48,391 nucleotides of DNA from Clostridia bacterium (GTDB lineage: Bacteria > Bacillota > Clostridia > Oscillospirales > QAKW01): contig JAFSCX010000014.1 in the NCBI GenBank assembly GCA_017436525.1, forward strand, positions 1 to 48,391. The letters run 5' to 3'. Made by a program: the position numbers and the translations under genes. Of this stretch, positions 8,661 to 39,513 are shown one piece after another. Each line of letters begins with the position of its first letter. The first letter of the stretch is position 1. The notes below the pieces were generated by a model. It searched no databases. It was given only the letters and a program-made list of their open reading frames with translations, and was not told the origin of the DNA.

Positions 8661-10073
8661 ATGACTAAAATCCAGCGCTTCAAATATAATTTGATCGGCG
8701 ATAAAAATTTCTATCGCAAAGTAATATTGATCCTTTTGCCCATCATTATTCAAAATACGGTAACCAATGTAGTCAGCCTTTTGGATAATGTGATGGTTGG
8801 GCGGGTTGGTACACTGCCGATGTCGGCTGTGGCCATTGTAAATCAGCTGTTATTCATCTTCAACCTCTGCATCTTCGGCGGTCTTGCGGGAGCGGGAATC
8901 TTTTCCGCTCAATATGCAGGCGCGGATGACCATGCGGGAATGCGCCATTGCTTCCGCGCAAAGCTTTATATCGGAGCCGCCATGCTGGGAATCGCCTTCT
9001 TGGTATTTCTCCTTGCACCAAAGCCTTTGATCTCGATGTATCTTGCCGAAAGCACCTCCCCCGCCGATGCCGAGGCTACCATCGGCTATGGGCTCCAATA
9101 CCTTGCCATTATGCTGGCAGGCTTGCTTCCCTTTGCGGTCTCTCAAGCCTATGGAAGCACTTTAAGAGAGCTTGGAGAAACCCGCCTGCCGATGATTGCA
9201 AGCGTCAGCGCCATTTTGGTCAACCTTGTATTCAACTATATTTTGATTTTTGGCGATGAAGGGCTTCCCTTCCTATGGTTTGGCCCTATGGGCGTGGCAG
9301 GCGCCGCCATCGCAACGGTGCTTTCCCGCTATGTGGAGGCTATCATTATCATTCTCTTTGTTCATAGAAATAAACAAAGATTTCCCTTTATTAAAGGGGT
9401 TTATCGCAGCTTTAAGATTCCCTTGGAGCTTTGCAAGCGGATCGGAAAAAGAGGGCTTCCCCTTTTGGTTAATGAGTTTCTTTGGTCCTTTGGCATGGCA
9501 ATTCTGATGCAGAGTTATTCGATCAGAGGGCTGGAGGTGGTAGCCGCCACCAATATTTCTTCCACTGCCTCCAATCTTTTCAATGTAGTCTTCCTTTCCA
9601 TGGGAAATGCGCTGGCGATCATGGTAGGCCAGCAGCTGGGGGCCAACAAAGCAAAAGAGGCCAAAACAACCGTATGGCGGTTGATCGCCCTATCGGTAGT
9701 CGCCTGCGCATGCTTGGGGCTGATCATGTATTTCCTCTCCTCCTTGATCCCTATGCTTTATAACACTTCCGCAAGCGTGCGAAATCTTGCTGCTCAGCTG
9801 ATTCGCATTGTAGGGCTGATGATGCCCTTCTACGCCTTCTGCCATTGCTGCTATTTCACCCTGCGCTCCGGCGGTAAGACGATGATCACCTTTATCTTCG
9901 ATTGCGGCTTCACTTGGGGAATCGCAGTACCGATGGCGTTTGTCCTTGCCAATTTTACCTCTCTTCCCATTCTGCCGCTCTTCTTTGCCGTGCAGGCGGT
10001 GGATGCCGTAAAATGCATCATCGGCTTCATTCTCATCAAAAAAGGAATCTGGATCAACAACATTGTTGAATAA
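8661..10073 (+). CDS. MATE-family multidrug/metabolite exporter
   Basis: A 470-residue integral membrane protein with about twelve hydrophobic segments in two homologous halves. 'LPIIIQNTVTNVVSLLDNVMVGRVGTLPMSAVAIVNQ' is the hallmark N-terminal MATE region; 'FLWSFGMAILMQSYSIRGLEVVAATNISST' begins the second half. Exports cationic compounds with Na+ or H+ antiport; substrate unknown. The ATG at 8661 is chosen over an in-frame upstream start inside the terminator hairpin. Because a terminator lies just upstream, expression probably depends on read-through. Confidence 0.9.
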   Translation: MTKIQRFKYNLIGDKNFYRKVILILLPIIIQNTVTNVVSLLDNVMVGRVGTLPMSAVAIVNQLLFIFNLCIFGGLAGAGIFSAQYAGADDHAGMRHCFRAKLYIGAAMLGIAFLVFLLAPKPLISMYLAESTSPADAEATIGYGLQYLAIMLAGLLPFAVSQAYGSTLRELGETRLPMIASVSAILVNLVFNYILIFGDEGLPFLWFGPMGVAGAAIATVLSRYVEAIIIILFVHRNKQRFPFIKGVYRSFKIPLELCKRIGKRGLPLLVNEFLWSFGMAILMQSYSIRGLEVVAATNISSTASNLFNVVFLSMGNALAIMVGQQLGANKAKEAKTTVWRLIALSVVACACLGLIMYFLSSLIPMLYNTSASVRNLAAQLIRIVGLMMPFYAFCHCCYFTLRSGGKTMITFIFDCGFTWGIAVPMAFVLANFTSLPILPLFFAVQAVDAVKCIIGFILIKKGIWINNIVE

Positions 10074-10077
10074 AAAG

Positions 10078-10119
10078 GGGCTGTAAAAAAATCAAAATGA
10101 TTTTTTTACAGCCCTTTTT
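10078..10119. terminator. Bidirectional terminator between the convergent MATE and M20 genes
   Basis: GGGCTGTAAAAAAATCA (10078-10094) pairs perfectly with 10098-10114 and is bordered by A5 on the left and T5 on the right, so it can act in both directions. It is one of several related hairpins in the window. Confidence 0.9.
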
Positions 10120-11554
10120 ATCTTTTTTTGATTAGACGAATATAAAATTCTACCGCGCGATGGATGGTTTCCAAAGGAATCCGCTCATCGTTGCCATGGA
10201 TCATCCCCCGCTCCTCTTTGGAAAGGGCCATAGCAGAAAAGCGATAGACGCAATCGGAAAGATCCCGATAATGGCGGGAATCCGAGCAAGCCATCATCAA
10301 ATAGGGAGAAACCAAGGCTTCAGGCCAAGTATCATGGATCGCGGCAGAGACATCTTCCCAGCCTTTCCCCTCGGTCCGAGAGATAGGCGAAGGGTCGGTG
10401 CCGTTCATCAAGGAGATTTTGATTTTAGGGTCCGCCACAGTCTTTTTTACATATTCAAGGGTCTCCTTCACCGTATCCTCGCAGATAATCCGCATATTGG
10501 CGGTCATCTTGGCATAAGGAGGCATTACGTTGAGCCCCTTACTTCCCTGCATGGTGGTAAAAGCGCAGGTGGTGCGGACCATGGCGTTGAGCTCGCCGCC
10601 GGAGAATTTGCAGATCAGCTTCAAAAGCGGGCTGAAGCACCAAAGATTGGCAAAGATCAGCTTATAGGCAAAGGTGCTATGGCGGCCCAATACATTAAAC
10701 ATTTCCGCCACCGGCTTGGTAAGCTTCCCCTTAGGCGGATGGCCCTCCAGCCGCAGGCAGGCGCGGGAAAGAAGCCCTACAGCCGTATGAACGGGAGGCG
10801 CAGAGGCGTGGCCGCCGTTGCCCGAAAATTCAAAGGCAACGTTCATCAGCCCTTTTTCGGCAATCCCCACCAAAGCGCAGGAGCGCTTGACTCCGGGGAA
10901 TGCCCCTTGGACCACGGCTCCGCCTTCATCCACCACCAAAGCGGGATGGATCGAATGGTCCTTAAACCATTGGACAATAGAAGGAGCGCCGTTGCCGTTG
11001 ATTTCCTCATCGCCGCCGAAAGCGAGATAAATGGTATTCTTCGGGGTAAAGCCCTTTTGAATATAGTATTCGACGCTCTGCAGAATGGCATTGAGGGTGC
11101 CCTTGGTATCCAAGGTGCCGCGCCCCCAGAGCACACCATCCTCAATCTCCCCGCAAAAGGGATCCCGGCTCCAATTTTCCGCCTCTACCGAGACTACATC
11201 ATAATGAGCCATCAATACAGTGGGATCCCCCTCTTCCCTGCCCTGCCAGCAATAAAGCAGGGCTCTTCGATCGGGGCGGTGGAGGGAGCAGGTCTTATGA
11301 ACCAGCGGGAACCGCTCGGAAAGTAAGGCAATGAATTTTTCGAATTCACCCTCATCCTCTTTGGATGAATCCTGATCGGAGATGGTCTTGCAGCGGATCA
11401 TGGCGGCAAGATCCTCTACCGCCTTTTCTTTATCAAAATCGATGGGTGCATGGTTTGCTTCCCTTTCGGGCAGCGGGCAAAAGGCAAGGGTGCGGATCAG
11501 CACTACGGCCAAAAACAGCACTAACAGCCCAAGAGCAATCCAAAGAAAAATCAT
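10118..11554 (-). CDS. Membrane-anchored M20-family metallopeptidase (carboxypeptidase S / PM20D1-like)
   Basis: A 478-residue M20 hydrolase with an N-terminal membrane anchor (IFLWIALGLLVLFLAVVLIRTL), so the enzyme probably faces outward. Metal and catalytic residues are in MAHYDVV, GRGTLDTKGT, GGDEEINGNGA and the C-terminal 'MIHGNDERIP'. A dimerisation domain sits around residues 225-360. Carboxypeptidase S/PM20D1 relatives cleave dipeptides or N-acyl amino acids. The gene starts two bases after the stop of the upstream membrane protein, so it is the last gene of a four-gene run, and its job is probably to process what the membrane pair transports (inference). Confidence 0.87.
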   Translation of the reverse strand: MIFLWIALGLLVLFLAVVLIRTLAFCPLPEREANHAPIDFDKEKAVEDLAAMIRCKTISDQDSSKEDEGEFEKFIALLSERFPLVHKTCSLHRPDRRALLYCWQGREEGDPTVLMAHYDVVSVEAENWSRDPFCGEIEDGVLWGRGTLDTKGTLNAILQSVEYYIQKGFTPKNTIYLAFGGDEEINGNGAPSIVQWFKDHSIHPALVVDEGGAVVQGAFPGVKRSCALVGIAEKGLMNVAFEFSGNGGHASAPPVHTAVGLLSRACLRLEGHPPKGKLTKPVAEMFNVLGRHSTFAYKLIFANLWCFSPLLKLICKFSGGELNAMVRTTCAFTTMQGSKGLNVMPPYAKMTANMRIICEDTVKETLEYVKKTVADPKIKISLMNGTDPSPISRTEGKGWEDVSAAIHDTWPEALVSPYLMMACSDSRHYRDLSDCVYRFSAMALSKEERGMIHGNDERIPLETIHRAVEFYIRLIKKR

Positions 11555-11556
11555 TC

Positions 11557-12216
11557 TTACAGTTTTCCTTTCTTATAGAGTACGCGGGCCACTGCAATCG
11601 CGATAATAGCACCAACGGGGACCAACATTCCCACAGCGCCGGAGAGACCGGGCACCGCAATAAAGAGGACCAGCATCACCGCCACCGGTGCAATGGCCAG
11701 CTTCCAATTGCGAGAGATATAGACCACGCCCAAAGCGCCGAAAAGGGCGGGCAGGATATTATCAAAAGCGGGCGTCAGGGTGGGATTTTCCAAAATAGGA
11801 GTCAGCGGCACAATCATCAGCACGCCCAAGGCAATGATCAGAATGGTTACAATGGAAGAGGTGGCCACCGCGATGGTGGAGATAATCTCCGCCTCCTTAG
11901 AGCCTGCCTTTACCTCGGCATTTTCCATGGCGTTGATGGCGCAAGGTGCTTTCAGATTGGTAATATTACCGGTAACAAAAGCAAGATAAGAGCTGCCTGC
12001 ACCCAGCATGGGGATATAGGTAAAGACTTCGATCAGACCGACCGTCCAGAAAATCGGCGCAACGCCGATCAGCCCTTTCAGAACTACGCCCCAATCGGGC
12101 TTTAATCGGAAAAGGATCGCCACCAGAAGCGGAAATGCACAGATAGCTACTGCGGCAACGGCGCCCCAGATTCGCCCATCGATATGGATTTGCTCGTCAT
12201 AAGGTCTTTTTTTCAT
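11557..12216 (-). CDS. Multi-spanning membrane protein, partner of the DUF5058-like protein
   Basis: A 219-residue protein with about six hydrophobic helices, for example 'IWGAVAAVAICAFPLLVAILF', 'ILIIALGVLMIVPL' and 'LAIAPVAVMLVLFIAVPGLSGAVG'. The loop 'LGAGSSYLAFVTGNITNLKAPCAINAME' is rich in small and polar residues and looks like a substrate or ion path. The ATG at 12216 lies 8 bases after GGAGGT; an ATG at 12222 overlaps the upstream stop but sits too near that site. It is sandwiched between the DUF5058-like gene and the M20 peptidase. I do not recognise a named family. Confidence 0.75.
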   Translation of the reverse strand: MKKRPYDEQIHIDGRIWGAVAAVAICAFPLLVAILFRLKPDWGVVLKGLIGVAPIFWTVGLIEVFTYIPMLGAGSSYLAFVTGNITNLKAPCAINAMENAEVKAGSKEAEIISTIAVATSSIVTILIIALGVLMIVPLTPILENPTLTPAFDNILPALFGALGVVYISRNWKLAIAPVAVMLVLFIAVPGLSGAVGMLVPVGAIIAIAVARVLYKKGKL

Positions 12217-12221
12217 TTTCA

Positions 12222-12953
12222 TCAACCTCCGATCCAATTGGTAACGGGAATGGCGGAAGCCATCCCCACCAGCATGCATATCGGCAACGCATAATCATTG
12301 AGCCATTGCCATTTTGTAATCTTCATCAAAAGGCCCATCAGCGCCATGCAAACCGCTGAGATCAGCATGATAAAGACGGGAATCCAGCCGGAAAGGCCGC
12401 TTCTGATATCGGTAAAGATCAGGCCCATAAAAGCTGAGATCATGCCCATGAAAAGCGCATTGGTAAGAATCTCGCCCCATTTGGTATCCTTCTTTTTCAT
12501 CTTATCCATGCCGCCTTGAATCTTTTTGCAAAGGATCGGCACCAAAATCAAGCCCACGATAATTCCCAAGGTCATCACGATCGTGATATTGAGGAATTGA
12601 GACCCGCTCACTTGAGCAGCAGAATCGGAAAGAGATGTACCGGCCGCATTGGCGGCATTTTCGGCGGCGGTAAGCTCATAAGTAAGAGCGCCGATTACCG
12701 AAAGGCGCAGCCAAGGCAGCGCAAGGCCAAGCTTTTTGGAAAGGACAATCACACCCATCAGAATGGATACGGCCGGTGCGATGGTGAAGACGGCAGAGGA
12801 TATCACCGCCTTGCGCAGCTTGGATTTTGCAATTCCTATCTCTTTACCTGCCTGCCAAGCACGGATCAAAAAGAAGACCGATTGGGCCAGCACCAGCAGC
12901 AAAATTCCGCCAACGATCACAAAGAGGATCGGGCTGTTCAAACTAAATTCCAT
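12222..12953 (-). CDS. DUF5058-like multi-spanning membrane protein
   Basis: A 243-residue membrane protein with six or seven hydrophobic helices, starting 'NSPILFVIVGGILLLVLAQSVFF'. 'FLIRAWQAGKEIGIAKSKLRKAVISSAVFTIAPAVSILMGVI' matches my memory of the DUF5058 family found in Clostridia next to M20 peptidases; this assignment is from memory. 'LPWLRLSVIGALTYELTAAENAA' and 'MKITKWQWLNDYALPICMLVGMASAIPV' are further conserved-looking parts. Its stop (12224-12222) touches the next gene, so the two proteins are probably made in equal amounts and may form a heteromeric transporter. Confidence 0.72.
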   Translation of the reverse strand: MEFSLNSPILFVIVGGILLLVLAQSVFFLIRAWQAGKEIGIAKSKLRKAVISSAVFTIAPAVSILMGVIVLSKKLGLALPWLRLSVIGALTYELTAAENAANAAGTSLSDSAAQVSGSQFLNITIVMTLGIIVGLILVPILCKKIQGGMDKMKKKDTKWGEILTNALFMGMISAFMGLIFTDIRSGLSGWIPVFIMLISAVCMALMGLLMKITKWQWLNDYALPICMLVGMASAIPVTNWIGG

Positions 12954-12971: not shown

Positions 12972-14093
12972 TTAATATTTGAAATATTGAAAATAATTAC
13001 ATTCCAGCATGCCGTTATAAAGCTTGCGCTTTTTATCGGCTTTTCTGCCAAAGAGTTTTTCAAAATCCGCGTCGGGCGCAATAATAAAATACCGCTTGCC
13101 CGGCTCTTGCAGGAACACCTTGCCCATCAAGCGATAAAGCTCCTGCGCCTGCTCCTTTTCCAAAAGGCGCTCGCCATAGGGAGGATTGGTTACCACCATT
13201 CCGCGGGGCGTTTCGATTTTGAAATCCTTTACATCCGCCACTTTGAATTCCAAGCAATCGGCCACTCCTGCCCGCTTGGCATTATCCTCTGCCATTTTGA
13301 CCGCCTTCGGATCAATATCGCTGCCGATCCCGCGGAAGGGAATCTCCTTCTTGGCGGCGGCGCGGGCCGCTTCCCTTCGCTGCTGCCAATGCGCTTTGGG
13401 GAATAGCGCCCATCCTTCCGAGATGAAGCCGCGCCCAAGGCCGGGCGCCATATTGCGGGCCAGCATTGCGCCCTCAATCAAAAGAGTGCCGCTGCCTGCA
13501 AAAGGATCATAAAGCACCGTATCGGGATAGGGCCTTGCGATGCTCACCAGCGCCGCGCCCAAGGTCTCCCGAATGGGAGCGGGCATGGCGGCAGGGCGGT
13601 AGCCTCGCTTATGAAGGGCCGTGCCGGTGGTATCCAGCATCAAAACCGCCTGATCCTTCAAGAGGGAGAAACGGATGCTATAAAGCATTCCGCTTTCTTG
13701 AAAAACGCTTCTTTTATAATGGCCCTCCAGCCGCCGCACGATTGCTTTTTTTACAATGGATTGGCAGGCAGGAATGCTGCTGAGCTTGGAATTGAGCGCA
13801 TGGCCCTTCACGGGGAAACGCCCATCTTCGGGAATAAACTGCTCCCATGGGAGCTTTCTTACGCCCTCAAAGAGCTCTTCAAAGGTTCTTGCGGGAAATT
13901 GGCCCAATACAATTTCCACCCTTTGGCCGCAGCGCAGCCAAAGGTTGGCATCAATGAAGGTTTCGGGAGTACCCTCAAAATAGACCCGACCGTTATCGGC
14001 GCGGACCTCTTCCGCTCCGATTTTTCTCAACTCTTCCGCCACCAAGGCTTCCAAGCCAAACAAACAAGGCACACAGCCTTTGATTTTTTTCAT
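12972..14093 (-). CDS. THUMP-domain class I SAM-dependent RNA methyltransferase (RlmL/YpsC-like)
   Basis: A 373-residue methyltransferase. The N-terminal part (about 1-165, opening CVPCLFGLEALVAEELRKIG) is a ferredoxin-like/THUMP RNA-binding region. The C-terminal Rossmann fold has 'LYDPFAGSGTLLIEGAMLARNMAPG' (SAM binding) and NPPYGERL, the N6/N2 methyltransferase motif IV. Length and order match the N-terminal half of RlmL and B. subtilis YpsC, which probably make m2G in 23S rRNA. It lies 18 bases upstream of the DUF5058-like gene and shares its transcript; a functional link is not evident. Confidence 0.87.
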   Translation of the reverse strand: MKKIKGCVPCLFGLEALVAEELRKIGAEEVRADNGRVYFEGTPETFIDANLWLRCGQRVEIVLGQFPARTFEELFEGVRKLPWEQFIPEDGRFPVKGHALNSKLSSIPACQSIVKKAIVRRLEGHYKRSVFQESGMLYSIRFSLLKDQAVLMLDTTGTALHKRGYRPAAMPAPIRETLGAALVSIARPYPDTVLYDPFAGSGTLLIEGAMLARNMAPGLGRGFISEGWALFPKAHWQQRREAARAAAKKEIPFRGIGSDIDPKAVKMAEDNAKRAGVADCLEFKVADVKDFKIETPRGMVVTNPPYGERLLEKEQAQELYRLMGKVFLQEPGKRYFIIAPDADFEKLFGRKADKKRKLYNGMLECNYFQYFKY

Positions 14094-14353: not shown

Positions 14354-16579
14354 ATGGAGCAATGGAGCGGATTTACTGCCGGAAAATGGCAGGATGAGAT
14401 TGATGTGCGGGATTTTATCCAGCGCAACTATACCCCTTATATGGGGGATGATGCTTTTTTGGCAGGCCCCACTGAGCGTACCAAAGGCCTTTTGGAAAAA
14501 TGCCGCGCGCTGATGGCAGAAGAGCAGGCAAAGGGCGGTGTATTGGATATTGATACCGAGACGGTAAGCTCCCTGACCAGCTATAAGCCCGGATATATCG
14601 ATAAAGACCACGAATTGATCGTTGGCCTTCAGACCGATGCACCCTTAAAACGGGGGGTCAATCCCTTCGGGGGCATTAATATGACCCGCAAGGCCTGCAA
14701 AGCCTATGGTTATACCCTTTCGGATAAGATTGAAGAGGAGTTCACCTATCGAACCACCCATAACGACGGTGTATTCCGCGTCTATAGCAAAGACATTCGC
14801 AACGCCCGCCATAGCGGCATTATCACCGGCCTGCCCGACGCCTACGGCAGAGGCCGCATTATCGGCGACTATCGCCGCATCGCTCTCTACGGAATTGACC
14901 GGCTGATTGAAGAAAAGCAAAAGGATAAAGATCAGCTTGCCGATCGGGTGCCCGATGCAGAGAATGTGCGCCAATTAGAGGAGCTTTTCCAGCAAATCGC
15001 ATTTCTCGGCAAGCTCAAGGAAATGGCCGCCATGTATGGTTGCGATATTTCCGCCCCTGCGAAGGATGCAAAAGAAGCGGTGCAATGGCTTTATTTCGGC
15101 TATCTTGCCGCCAACAAGGAGCAAAACGGTGCAGCCATGAGTTTGGGAAGAGTCTCTACCTTCCTTGATATCTATCTGGAGCGCGATCTGGCAAGAGGTA
15201 TCCTCACGGAGGAGACAGCGCAGGAGCTGATTGATGATTTTGTCTTAAAGCTTCGGATGGCGCGCCATCTCAGAACCCCCGAATATAATGAGCTTTTTGC
15301 AGGAGATCCCATGTGGATCACCGAAGCGCTGGGCGGCATGGGAATTGATGGGCGCACCTTGGTTACCCGCTCCACCTTCCGCATGCTCAATACCCTGCGG
15401 AACTTAGGGCCTTCCGCCGAGCCGAATCTTACGGTCCTTTGGTCTCAGCGGCTGCCTCTCCCCTTTAAGCATTTTTGCAACCGCCTCTCCTGCGAAACCT
15501 GCGCCATTCAATATGAGAATGACGATGTAATGCGGGAAGGCTTTGGGGATGATTATGCCATCGCCTGCTGCGTTTCCGCTATGCGGGTCGGCAAGGATAT
15601 GCAATTCTTCGGCGCAAGAGCCAATCTTGCAAAGCTGCTGCTTTACAGCCTCAACGGCGGTCGGGATGAGAAAAACGGTGAGCAGGTAGCGCCGCCCATG
15701 CCTGTATATGAAGGAGATACGCTGGATTATAATGTGGTATTGCAGCGGATGAATTTCTATCGCGGCTGGCTTGCCAAAACCTATGTATCCGCCATGAATA
15801 TGATCCATTATATGCATGATAAATATGCCTACGAGAAGACGCAGATGGCCCTTCACGATACCGATGTCCATCGGTTTATGGCCTTTGGTGCGGCAGGGCT
15901 TTCGGTATTGGCCGATTCCCTTTCTGCCATTCGCTATGCCAAGGTTACTCCCCTGCGGGATGAGCGTGGGCTGATCACAGATTTTAAGGTTGAGGGAACA
16001 TTCCCCACCTACGGCAACGACGATGATCGGGTTGATTCCATCGCTGTCGAGCAGACCAAGCTTTTTGCCGATGCCTTGAAAGCAATCCCCACCTATCGCA
16101 ACGCAGAGCACACCCTCTCCATTCTGACCATCACCTCGAATGTGGTCTACGGCAAAAAGACCGGCGCCACCCCCGATGGCCGCAAAGCAGGAGAGCCCTT
16201 TGCGCCCGGCGCCAATCCCATGCACGGCAGAGAGAAAAACGGCGCTCTTGCCTCCCTCAATTCGGTGGCCAAGCTTTCCTATGATATCTGCAAGGATGGT
16301 ATTTCCAATACCTTTACCATTGTACCTGCGGCTCTGGGCGAAAATCAGCAGATCCGCGAGCAAAATCTTTCCAATATTATCGATGGCTATTTCGGCAAAG
16401 GCGCCCAGCATATCAACATCAACGTTTTGGATCGGGCCACCTTACTTCGCGCCAAGGCTCATCCCGAGGAATATCCCAATCTCACCATTCGCGTCAGCGG
16501 CTATGCGGTAGATTTCCATAAGCTTTCCCCTGCCCAGCAGGATGAGGTGATCTCCCGCACCTTCCACGAGGAATTCTAA
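14354..16579 (+). CDS. pflB: Formate C-acetyltransferase (pyruvate formate-lyase)
   Basis: A 741-residue glycyl-radical enzyme, the usual PflB length, converting pyruvate and CoA to acetyl-CoA and formate in the anaerobic cytosol. The catalytic Cys-Cys pair lies in '[22 protein letters not shown]' (split here as [11 protein letters not shown] and [11 protein letters not shown]). The radical glycine is in RVSGYAV near the C-terminus. '[19 protein letters not shown]' is another family signature. GGAGG eight bases before the ATG gives a firm start. Its stop is followed directly by the ATG of the activating enzyme. Controlled by the ZTP riboswitch and terminator upstream. Confidence 0.97.
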
Positions 16580-17278
16580 ATGATCGGGAAAATCGCCTCT
16601 TTTCAATCCATGGGCTGCGCCGACGGGCCGGGAGTGCGCTCGGTGGTTTTTCTGCAAGGCTGCCCTCTTCACTGCCCCTATTGCCATAATCCCGAGACGC
16701 AAAGCACCGAAGGCGGAGAAGAAACAACCGTAGATGCGCTGATTCGGAAAATCTTGCGCTTTTTCCCCTATTTCGGCGCAGAGGGCGGCGTTACCCTCTC
16801 GGGCGGTGAGCCGCTTCTGCAGCGGGATTTTGCCGAAAAGTTCCTAAAAGAATGTAAAGCAAATAGCCTTCACACTGCACTGGATACCAGCGGAATTCTG
16901 CATGGTGGCGCGGTTTTAGACCATTGCGACCTTGTACTCTGCGATTTGAAATTCACCACCGATGCTCTTTATCGGCAGCATACGGGTGGATCTCTTGAGA
17001 GCGTACTATCCTTCATGGAAGAGACTGCAAAAAAAGAGATTCCCTTATGGATTCGCCATGTGGTTGTGCCGGAATTGACCGATGAAGATATCGACGAGGT
17101 TATCAAAATCGCCATGCAATTTCCTAATCTGAAAAAGATTCAGCTTTTACCCTTCCGCAAGATCTGCACCCATAAATACGAAGAATTGGGGCGCACCTTT
17201 CCCCTTGCCGGCACTCCCGCTTGCGGCAAGGAGCTGCTGGAGAAATTAAATCAAAAGATTCCATTAAATTTGCGATAA
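16580..17278 (+). CDS. pflA: Pyruvate formate-lyase activating enzyme (radical SAM)
   Basis: A 232-residue radical SAM protein that installs the glycyl radical on PflB. The [4Fe-4S] ligands are in CPLHCPYCHNPET (CxxxCxxC). 'GCADGPGVRSVVFLQG' precedes them and 'GGVTLSGGEPLLQ' carries the SAM-binding GGE motif. 'IRHVVVPELTD' and the C-terminal 'LLPFRKICTHKYEELG' also fit. The ATG follows the pflB stop with no gap, so translation is coupled. The gene is closed by a strong hairpin shared with the convergent neighbour. Confidence 0.96.
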   Translation: MIGKIASFQSMGCADGPGVRSVVFLQGCPLHCPYCHNPETQSTEGGEETTVDALIRKILRFFPYFGAEGGVTLSGGEPLLQRDFAEKFLKECKANSLHTALDTSGILHGGAVLDHCDLVLCDLKFTTDALYRQHTGGSLESVLSFMEETAKKEIPLWIRHVVVPELTDEDIDEVIKIAMQFPNLKKIQLLPFRKICTHKYEELGRTFPLAGTPACGKELLEKLNQKIPLNLR

Positions 17279-29990: not shown

Positions 29991-30032
29991 AAAAAAATTC
30001 CTCATTTGCTATTGCAAATGAGGAATTTTTTT
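29991..30032. terminator. Terminator hairpin, right copy beside repeat element 2 (M81 gene terminator)
   Basis: A perfect 19-bp stem (29991-30009 with 30014-30032) around a TATT loop; core CCTCATTTGC/GCAAATGAGG. It reaches into the stop codon of the M81 gene. Compared with 29664-29701, a C-G pair has become T-A, keeping the stem. Confidence 0.9.
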
Positions 30033-31530
30033 ATTTGATTTTCGCTTGGTCCGGCTGATAGCCTTCAGGCAGATCAAAGGGATAAAGCCCTTTGGGAAGA
30101 TTTTTCCATTGGAAAAGCTTCAGATTGGAAGCGCCTGCACCCGGCGTATCCGCCACATAGATCAGATCGCTGATGACAGAATAAGGCGCTCTGAAGGAGG
30201 TATTGGCCTTAACGACCACCAGATCATAAAAGCTGGGCTCCATGCCGAATTGGCGGTAAATAAAGGGAGAACCCGAGTTGGACCCTTGCTCGCAGAGGAG
30301 AATATCGATATTACCGAAATTCACGACCGCAGAAAGGCCCAAATAGCCGGTTCCGCTCTTATAGGTGCGGAAGTAGCCATCATGCAGGGAGCGGACCATT
30401 CCCTCTCCCTTAAAGGGGCCGGGCATTCCTGCTGTATAGCCGGCACCGATTGAGAATTCACCTTTTTTGCCAACGCCGATCTCAAAGGCTTTTTTAACCG
30501 ATACGGGATCTACAACAAACATACATGCACGCAGCTTGCTTCCCCGCTCCTGCAACCGCATGGCTACAACCGGACTATCGCCCACACATCCGCCGTTGGG
30601 AGAATCGGCAGAATCAGCCAGAATCACCGGCTTACCGCTCTGATTTTCCTCGGCAATATCGATAATTTTATCCACATCCACCAGATCGGGCCAAGCTTCA
30701 TCCCGCAGATCAAAAAGCCCTTTAGCCAGAATATCTGCGCATTGCTTTGCTTGCTCTGCATCCTCACCGATGGTTACAACGCGGCTTGTAATTTCGGGAA
30801 TATCCAGCCAAGGCTGCACGGGGAAGATCGTAAAATCGGCAATCTTTCCTTGCGCTACCATCTCCTTCGCCCGATCCATCAGCACCTTAAAAGCCCCCTC
30901 CTTATCGGTATAGCCGGCAGGAGGAATCAGCATGGGGATCTCAGCGATAGCCATCTGATGCTTTTTGCCCTCCAAAAGATCCATGCAGAGGGTGGAGGCA
31001 CGATGGCCGGTCTTAAAGTGATCGATATGGGGATAGGTATTATAGCCGCAGATGATATCTACGCTCTTTATCATTCGCTCAGTAATATTGGCATGGAGAT
31101 CAAAAGCTGCCGCAATGACTACCTTCTCCCCTACCAAAGCGCGAATTCTTTCCATTAATACGCCGCAGGCATCATCGCAGCTTTCAGTGCAGGTAGCGCC
31201 ATGAAGGGTGGCAACGATTCCATCCAATTCCCCTGCGGCTTTGATATGATGCTCCAGCCGCTCGGTTAGATGAGAAAGCACCTGATCATCTACCCGACCG
31301 CCGGAAGCGGCATGCATGAATACAGAAGGAATGACCTCTGCACCGCGCTCCCAAAGCGCTTTTATAGAGCCACTTCCCACTCCAAGAAGATCTACTCGGC
31401 TCTTAAAACATTCTTCCCCTTCAAAAATCATTTGGGGATTGAATCGCTCAATAGGTTCAATTTTGGGATTAAACGTATTGCTTTCTTGATGAAATTCAAA
31501 TACAAGAACGCGTGGTTTTTTATTGCTCAT
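30031..31530 (-). CDS. M81-family metallopeptidase (MlrC / microcystinase C-like)
   Basis: A 499-residue protein of the MlrC family. 'RVLVFEFHQESNTFNP' opens the N-terminal domain with the H-x-E metal residues; 'LHGATCTESCDDACG', 'AAFDLHANI' and 'GYNTYPHIDHFKTGHRA' supply further metal ligands; DSADSPNGGCVGDS is in the middle. The family includes a microcystin-degrading peptidase, but most members have unknown substrates. The ATG at 31530 follows AAGGAAG by eight bases; a GTG nine bases upstream sits on that site. It lies 46 bases after the DUF362 gene and is probably cotranscribed. Confidence 0.88.
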   Translation of the reverse strand: MSNKKPRVLVFEFHQESNTFNPKIEPIERFNPQMIFEGEECFKSRVDLLGVGSGSIKALWERGAEVIPSVFMHAASGGRVDDQVLSHLTERLEHHIKAAGELDGIVATLHGATCTESCDDACGVLMERIRALVGEKVVIAAAFDLHANITERMIKSVDIICGYNTYPHIDHFKTGHRASTLCMDLLEGKKHQMAIAEIPMLIPPAGYTDKEGAFKVLMDRAKEMVAQGKIADFTIFPVQPWLDIPEITSRVVTIGEDAEQAKQCADILAKGLFDLRDEAWPDLVDVDKIIDIAEENQSGKPVILADSADSPNGGCVGDSPVVAMRLQERGSKLRACMFVVDPVSVKKAFEIGVGKKGEFSIGAGYTAGMPGPFKGEGMVRSLHDGYFRTYKSGTGYLGLSAVVNFGNIDILLCEQGSNSGSPFIYRQFGMEPSFYDLVVVKANTSFRAPYSVISDLIYVADTPGAGASNLKLFQWKNLPKGLYPFDLPEGYQPDQAKIK

Positions 31531-31576
31531 TGGGGGCACTTCCTTTCATTTTTTACAGCCTTTTTTACAGCCTTTT

Positions 31577-37977: not shown

Positions 37978-39513
37978 TTATTCTGCAGATTCAACTGTTT
38001 CTACAGGAACATTATTAACAGGAGGCTCCGGATTATATTCTGCATATACAGATTGAACGTCGCCCAGCCAGTCGTATTGATAATTCATATTATAGTAGTT
38101 GATCAGATAGCGCGCATAGAGAAAATTATTATTAAGAGGAACCGTACCGGTATTCTCATCGTTATAAGTGAGAATCAAATTGCCGTTGGCAAGTTTGGTA
38201 TGATAATCCATATAGAGAAGCTTTGCAAGGATTCTATAATTATTGGTACTGGTCTTATCCCCTGCAGGCTGGAAGGAGATGTTGGAAATATTTCCGTAAA
38301 GAGCATCCAAATCGGTAACATAAGCTACCACATCCTTCTTTACGCTCTCTTTCAAAGCAGATGCACAATAGAGATGCATATCAGCGCCCAGCAGATATAC
38401 CACATCGCCAACCTCTAAATAAGCGTCGAAATAAGCGGCATATTTGAGATAATCGGTATTATAAGAAGCGCCGTTATTTGCAATGATATCGGAATATCTT
38501 GCTAAGACAAGGAACGCCACAAAGCTTGCATCCGCATCATTGGTGATTCCCCGTTGCTTCGCAATGGCGCGGGCCACTTGCATGGGGACAATGACCTCGG
38601 GATAATCTGTATTAATCAATACCTCAGAGGTAATGGGGCTATAAATACTGCCCACACCCATCGCCGTATAGAGGCCGGGGAACATCAATTTCTTTGCAGT
38701 AACCTTACTCCCCTTCAGGAAAGGATAATCTTGAGCAGCTGCATCAAAGCAAGCATTGACTGCTTCTGCAATTTCTTTTACAGAGCTGCCGGTAGATGCG
38801 TATCTGGAATTACCGTCTGCCGTATAGAAGATGCTGTTGTTGGTGATTCCGTCTACAGCAATATTATTGAGCTGATCTACATAATAAATCATGGAGCTAT
38901 CAACGGCTTCTTCATATGTATGCAAAGGAGCATATTGACCTTTAAGGCCGGAATTATAAAGCAGGTAGCGATTGGTGGTAACACCATAGCACATGGAATA
39001 GAGCAAGAACCCAAATCCGAATACAGCCAGCAATACATAGCCGAACTGCACCCAGATCCCTGCAATCTTGATTCCCTCTTTTTCCTTGATGGTTTTATAT
39101 ACCAAGAATCCTGCATAGCCCAAAAGCCCTACAACCACTACGATCGCAAGCACCTCCATCAAGGAGAAGGGCAGGATGTTGGTGACGGTGGTAATCGCAA
39201 GGCGAACGCCGGCAGATACGGTAGTGCTCAAGGCTTCGCTGATATCGGGAGAGATCATCGCCAAAATATATAAAATCAAACCGATCAGGCCAAGGCCTGC
39301 AAAGCACCATTTAATGATAGAGAACACCTTATTGTTCATAAGGATCAATCTCCATTTTTCTTTTGTAGTATAAACGGGCTTGATGGATTCTAAATCCGCT
39401 ATATCAAACTCCAGTTCATCGTCAAATTCAGCCAAATCGTCAAGAGTGAACTCGTTTGCAAGGGCCTCCAGATCTTCCATCTGCAAACCTTCGAGTTTTT
39501 CATTCTCAGCCAT
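37978..39513 (-). CDS. DUF3810-like membrane protein with degenerate metallopeptidase motif
   Basis: A 511-residue membrane protein. An acidic N-terminus (LEDLEALANEFTLDDLAEFDDE) is followed by three hydrophobic helices (about 66-88, 113-137, 148-176) and a long extracellular domain. 'VPMQVARAIAKQRGITNDADASFVAFL' (in parts) aligns with the DUF3810 core, where I remember HExxH-type HELAHQRG...EDEANF; here both histidines and the glutamate are replaced, so zinc peptidase activity is unlikely. The tail is proline-rich and acidic. GAGGAGG seven bases before the ATG. Monocistronic. Function unknown. Confidence 0.78.
   Translation of the reverse strand: MAENEKLEGLQMEDLEALANEFTLDDLAEFDDELEFDIADLESIKPVYTTKEKWRLILMNNKVFSIIKWCFAGLGLIGLILYILAMISPDISEALSTTVSAGVRLAITTVTNILPFSLMEVLAIVVVVGLLGYAGFLVYKTIKEKEGIKIAGIWVQFGYVLLAVFGFGFLLYSMCYGVTTNRYLLYNSGLKGQYAPLHTYEEAVDSSMIYYVDQLNNIAVDGITNNSIFYTADGNSRYASTGSSVKEIAEAVNACFDAAAQDYPFLKGSKVTAKKLMFPGLYTAMGVGSIYSPITSEVLINTDYPEVIVPMQVARAIAKQRGITNDADASFVAFLVLARYSDIIANNGASYNTDYLKYAAYFDAYLEVGDVVYLLGADMHLYCASALKESVKKDVVAYVTDLDALYGNISNISFQPAGDKTSTNNYRILAKLLYMDYHTKLANGNLILTYNDENTGTVPLNNNFLYARYLINYYNMNYQYDWLGDVQSVYAEYNPEPPVNNVPVETVESAE

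Follow-up and report, generated by a model that had tools for sequence, protein, structure and literature searches.

The analysed window is a stretch of 48,391 nt which makes up positions 1 to 48,391 of contig JAFSCX010000014.1 of a Clostridia bacterium (assembly GCA_017436525.1). On its minus strand, a gene for a DUF5058 protein, a gene for an unnamed membrane protein, here called the partner, and a gene for an M20 hydrolase form a tight operon (Table 1). The three open reading frames were found at the positions given for them in a preliminary description of the sequence, and the ATG of the M20 gene follows two bases past the stop codon of the partner gene, as claimed there. The contact between the DUF5058 stop and the partner start, which was also claimed, exists for the first possible ATG of the partner (12222, with a TGATG overlap) but not for the second one (12216), which is the likelier start. 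Since a GGAGG sequence is located 9 nt from the second ATG (3 nt from the first) and partner orthologues mostly start at or near the second one, a gap of 5 nt between the two genes is more likely than an overlap.

Table 1. Features of the DUF5058 locus. Positions refer to the window, residue numbers to the respective protein.
Feature	Position	Strand	Basis or remark
RlmL-like 23S rRNA methyltransferase, directly upstream	12972..14093	-	Pfam match
DUF5058 subunit of 243 aa with six TM helices predicted and both termini predicted to lie outside	12222..12953	-	PF16481
DUF5058 conserved segment W81-A97, W.RLSviGa..yEl.AA, invariant R83 and E93	12663..12713	-	homologue alignment
Partner, 221 aa (219 aa from ATG 12216), six predicted TM helices, both termini predicted inside	11557..12222	-	no named family
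Partner conserved segment P71-A97, P.LG..gtYl.FvtGNi.NLk.PcA..A	11932..12012	-	homologue alignment
PM20D1/CPS1-like M20 hydrolase of 478 aa with a membrane anchor at the N terminus and intact metal ligands	10118..11554	-	Pfam/NCBIfam
M20 N-terminal anchor, residues 1-20, no K/R ahead of it, R21 and further K/R behind; N terminus predicted outside, catalytic domain in the cytosol	11495..11554	-	
M20 metal/catalytic residues H117, D119, D149, E183, E184, D209, H453	10196..11206	-	alignment
Bidirectional terminator hairpin, strong, near-perfect, z -8.85	10073..10119	.	closes operon

The DUF5058 gene starts 18 nt past the end of the RlmL-like gene, which is probably co-transcribed with the operon in this genome and in near relatives and which stands outside the module of DUF5058, partner and hydrolase. 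The terminator hairpin is common to the operon and a convergent MatE gene. Elsewhere in the window, a pyruvate formate-lyase-like glycyl radical enzyme directly followed by its radical SAM activase (14354-17278, plus strand), an M81/MlrC-type metallopeptidase (DUF1485; 30031-31539, minus strand) and a DUF3810 protein of 511 aa without known function (37978-39513, minus strand) are encoded.

The first protein matches PF16481 over the complete model (positions 1-222 of 222) with an E-value of 2.6e-69 and 233.6 bits against a gathering threshold of 28.2. Hydropathy and the charge profile of 68 homologues predict six spans with both ends outside. The segment W81-A97 is the best-conserved part of the protein, lies just past TM2 and appears re-entrant-like. 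Sequence searches of the PDB with DUF5058 and with the partner returned no match for either, and no paper on DUF5058 was found in the literature collection searched. Profile matches to UppP/BacA (E 3e-5 to 9e-4) stayed below the cut-off and are probably due to composition. They cover the second half of the DUF5058 model (L025, L095, L096, L098, L100) and may reflect composition or perhaps a distant relation among inverted-repeat membrane proteins.

No match to Pfam or NCBIfam was found for the partner, and none was consistent across its 70 homologues. Hydropathy and conserved charges predict six spans with both ends inside, so that the predicted topologies of the two proteins are opposite. The conserved segment of the partner is also located just past TM2, contains the invariant residues G74, Y79, G85 and P93, and is equivalent in register to W81-A97 of DUF5058 in a profile comparison. 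Only these conserved segments of the two profiles align (hhalign P 0.035-0.04, probability about 1%), which is suggestive of inverted halves at the level of sequence but is not evidence by itself.

The M20 protein is a member of Peptidase_M20 (E 8e-29, 101.5 bits, cut-off 24.6) with an M20_dimer domain (38.9 bits, cut-off 21). It matches NF006113 of the PRK08262 group from end to end with 330 bits, and falls short of the PRK08262 equivalog cut-offs (329.8 vs 503, 318.8 vs 825 and 300.8 vs 510 bits). By these scores it belongs to the PM20D1/CPS1-like PRK08262 group, but not to those curated equivalogs. With mammalian PM20D1 and yeast CPS1 it shares the match to this group and the metal ligands. 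The metal site is intact: H117, D119, D149, E183, E184 and D209 are invariant in 41 sequences, and H453 is present in the window protein.

Most PM20D1-like M20 enzymes of the module carry a membrane anchor. In all 35 enzymes with a detected anchor, the stretch ahead of it is free of lysine and arginine, and two to six of these residues follow within 15 positions. Orthologues in the spirochaete Treponema have neither anchor nor signal, and the hydrolases which replace the M20 enzyme elsewhere (AbgB-like, HipO-like and others) are soluble. Because of these anchor charges, read by the positive-inside rule, and of the soluble orthologues and replacements, the catalytic domain is predicted to face the cytoplasm, whereas the mammalian PM20D1 is extracellular. 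The same three observations speak against the outward-facing option of the preliminary description.

PF16481 was searched in 299 genomes from the phylum and in 245 from the class, of which 23 and 20, respectively, were above the cut-off, i.e., about 8% of the species. Within the genus of the window, DUF5058 is missing in one sister species and present in another. Such a patchy distribution is in keeping with an accessory trait that spreads by horizontal transfer. In total, 81 distinct loci were collected, three of them cut by contig ends. In each of the other 78, whose context is intact, the partner gene directly adjoins DUF5058 and the gene order is the same. It had been considered that the genes might rarely co-occur in other genomes, and the opposite was found for the pair. 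A search with the partner profile, which is independent of the DUF5058 profile, recovered the same genes and, where the samples overlap, the same genomes. The pairwise distances of the two proteins are correlated with r 0.95, to which shared ancestry contributes.

Bacteria that carry the pair belong to Bacillota, Spirochaetota and Izimaplasma. Both genes are also present in nine plasmid loci, which add three more phyla, so the two were always encoded together, as expected for subunits of a heteromeric transporter. Plasmid-borne pairs were found in six haloarchaea, Paracoccus, Arthrobacter/Paenarthrobacter and Vibrio. The DUF5058 frame is broken in Vibrio, and the partner frame is split in Paracoccus ACCC10489, Arthrobacter and Paenarthrobacter and intact in P. 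pantotrophus DSM 2944. Natural fusions of the two genes were absent among the loci examined for fusions.

The neighboring hydrolases were counted only in loci found via DUF5058 itself, 42 of which were evaluable. In 38 of them the pair is directly followed by an amide hydrolase gene, namely for a PM20D1-like M20 enzyme in 18, an AbgB-like in 8 and a HipO/TIGR01891-like enzyme in 6 loci, in addition to one amidohydrolase and one enzyme each of the CPG2-, ArgE-, PepT-, M42- and D-aminoacylase-like types. Since the genome of the window, at 1.75 Mb, contains no more than three M20-family genes, this adjacency in 38 of 42 loci is not due to chance. In a further locus (L126), the next gene resembles a C45 acyltransferase/amidase on visual inspection. 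About 10% of the loci lack an adjoining hydrolase. The exceptions include a few unrelated neighbors and two related pairs (L069, L119) with a gene for a PGA_cap (CapA-like) protein in the place of the amide hydrolase gene.

A PM20D1-like M20 enzyme as an obligate third part does not agree with these counts, as 24 of the 42 loci encode a different hydrolase or lack one. The type of hydrolase switches between loci, and therefore the pair of DUF5058 and partner is the constant unit and the amide hydrolase the interchangeable one. In a phylogeny built from the concatenated pair, the hydrolase type tracks the clades with 16 changes compared to 31.8 in shuffles, and one genome (G430) encodes three pairs with AbgB-, ArgE- and PepT-like enzymes. 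Among the 299 genomes, PM20D1-like M20 enzymes (13 genomes) and DUF5058 (23 genomes) coincide in 8, with a Fisher p-value of 3.5e-7 that overstates the association, since the genomes are not independent. In genomes without DUF5058, a DcuC/AbgT-type carrier is encoded directly after two of five PM20D1-like M20 genes (L144, L147), which again ties the PM20D1-like enzyme to an importer. These carriers are the natural counterpart of the DUF5058 pair, but they are single-chain proteins of another family.

A joint structure of the pair was modelled with AlphaFold2 for the homologue L030, in which both genes lie in one frame and the stop codon was read as glycine (alignment of 130 rows, 26 of them paired). 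The resulting chain of 465 residues reached a pLDDT of 86 and a pTM of 0.79. If two unrelated domains of equal size were tethered, a pTM near 0.5 would generally be expected. DUF5058 alone was modelled with a pLDDT of 78 and a pTM of 0.60, and its pLDDT rose to about 88 with the partner, with the largest gain in the conserved segment; this comparison is a cautious one because the query sequences differ. The two proteins are thus predicted by the model to form one assembly, and the outcome which would have spoken against the preliminary description, a predicted complex without an interface, did not arise for this homologue read through its stop codon.

In a Foldseek search, no solved structure matched the modelled pair at E <= 1e-3, and DUF5058 alone gave no match. 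The best matches of the pair were SLC4/SLC26 proteins (E 1.3e-3, probability 1.0, TM-score 0.30). Carriers of the SLC4/SLC26/UraA type with a 7+7 inverted repeat consist of two inverted halves, as proposed for the pair. An SLC26/UraA fold itself was not accepted due to the TM-score of 0.30 and a charge distribution which favors six instead of seven spans per half. YjiH-YjiG, SpmA-SpmB and paired SMR subunits are further cases in which two small adjacent membrane genes act as a pair, and in a comparison by sequence only neither subunit matched their Pfam families.

The haloarchaeal loci give the most specific hint at the substrate. The order DUF5058, partner, amidohydrolase is kept in all six of them. 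Five adjoin glycine-cleavage or lipoate genes (gcvT, gcvH, gcvPA, gcvPB, lpdA, lipA, glyA), and the sixth adjoins genes of beta-oxidation coding for an enoyl-CoA hydratase and a 3-hydroxyacyl-CoA dehydrogenase. On account of the glycine-cleavage neighbors, these haloarchaeal neighborhoods, from which alone the hint comes, would fit N-acylglycines of which glycine and the acyl group may both be burned. The six loci are, however, relatives of one another and may go back to a single ancestral arrangement. A divergent gene of the TRIC cation channel family lies near the operon in four of the six plasmids (L152, L153, L154, L161). Across all clades, what the swapped enzymes share is the amide of an amino acid as their target, be it N-acyl, N-aroyl or a dipeptide. 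For the PM20D1-like clade of the window, N-acyl amino acids or dipeptides are candidate substrates, as the preliminary description had proposed, and its link between the pair and a hydrolase was supported.

Taken together, the pair is probably an inverted-topology two-part importer of N-blocked amino acids or dipeptides which is combined with a cytosolic amidase encoded next door. DUF5058 and the partner would each make up one half of a single secondary-type membrane transporter, with inverted topology relative to each other, and would be assembled as a heterodimer in vivo. The substrates imported by this transporter would be dipeptides or small amino acids with an N-acyl or N-aroyl block. The downstream hydrolase, in the window the PM20D1-like M20 enzyme with its anchor on the inner side of the membrane, would cleave the amide within the cytoplasm to set free the amino acid and the acid, which would keep the inward gradient. 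Hydrolysis after import is the consistent reading because the M20 enzyme is predicted to be cytosolic, from charge rules and soluble relatives, and its replacements are soluble. From the earlier transporter-plus-hydrolase reading, the heteromeric transporter-like pair is retained, in line with the obligate co-occurrence, the joint structure prediction and the inverted topologies. A further-reaching view, which we regard as tentative and would not yet favor, is that the pair represents a new transporter superfamily, formed by an obligate antiparallel heterodimer with a fold absent from the solved structures, specific for N-acyl amino acids, served by interchangeable cytosolic amidases and distributed over bacteria and archaea.

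The pair could also import ordinary dipeptides or other peptides, in which case the hydrolases would be dipeptidases and N-acyl amino acids would not be a substrate. Dipeptidases and aminopeptidases do occur among M20, M42 and PepT-like enzymes, yeast CPS1 is a carboxypeptidase, and gut hosts are rich in peptides. The clades linked to AbgB-, HipO-, D-aminoacylase- and amidohydrolase-like enzymes point instead to blocked amino acids and make a restriction to peptides rather unlikely, although the mechanism would be common to both and only the substrate would differ.

Two further explanations deviate in the mechanism. The membrane pair might be a scaffold or regulator of the hydrolase, e.g., by presenting lipidated substrates, and not a transporter, which would agree with the missing fold match to a transporter and with the anchor in most PM20D1-like M20 enzymes of the module. 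This seems improbable, as the hydrolase is interchangeable and mostly soluble outside the window clade, and as two six-helix proteins of opposite topology with invariant charged residues in their conserved segments fit a carrier better. Export, with intracellular synthesis of N-acyl amino acids by the PM20D1-like enzyme from a fatty acid and an amino acid, would suit an enzyme anchored on the cytosolic side, and the mammalian PM20D1 was described as N-acyl amino acid synthase and hydrolase (PMC7145423). Such an outward module is nevertheless quite unlikely, because other clades swap in degradative AbgB-, HipO-, CPG2-, ArgE-, M42- and D-aminoacylase-like enzymes and the haloarchaeal copies adjoin genes of glycine catabolism.

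For the favored import reading, the closest described logic is that of Escherichia coli, in which the p-aminobenzoyl-glutamate importer AbgT and the M20 hydrolase AbgA/AbgB are encoded in one apparent operon (PMC5082436). In both systems an importer is encoded with an amide-splitting M20-family hydrolase, and some DUF5058 clades use AbgB-like enzymes. Unlike AbgT, which is a single polypeptide with its own Pfam family, the DUF5058 carrier would consist of two small proteins, and ABG_transport (PF03806) matched neither the two subunits nor their 67 and 70 homologues. In Clostridioides difficile, the operon CD630_08470-08500 comprises two unannotated genes followed by an AbgA-like gene, is reported to be repressed by CodY and is upregulated under fidaxomicin (PMC8739712). 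CD630_08470 and CD630_08480 are only a lead as candidates for a DUF5058-partner pair. The DUF5058 pair is a predicted new kind of importer component inside a known kind of import-and-hydrolyse module.

N-acyl and conjugated amino acids are exchanged between gut bacteria and their hosts, and to our knowledge few carriers for them are known. The analysis provides a testable function for DUF5058 and names its missing second half, which is covered by no Pfam or NCBIfam model. The module recurs from gut bacteria to salt-loving archaea, a spread beyond what the first reading of the sequence could see. As the adjoining hydrolase hints at the substrate of each clade, the family may be decoded genome by genome. 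If the pair is indeed a two-gene carrier of inverted topology, it would be a natural case for the origin of internal-repeat transporters.
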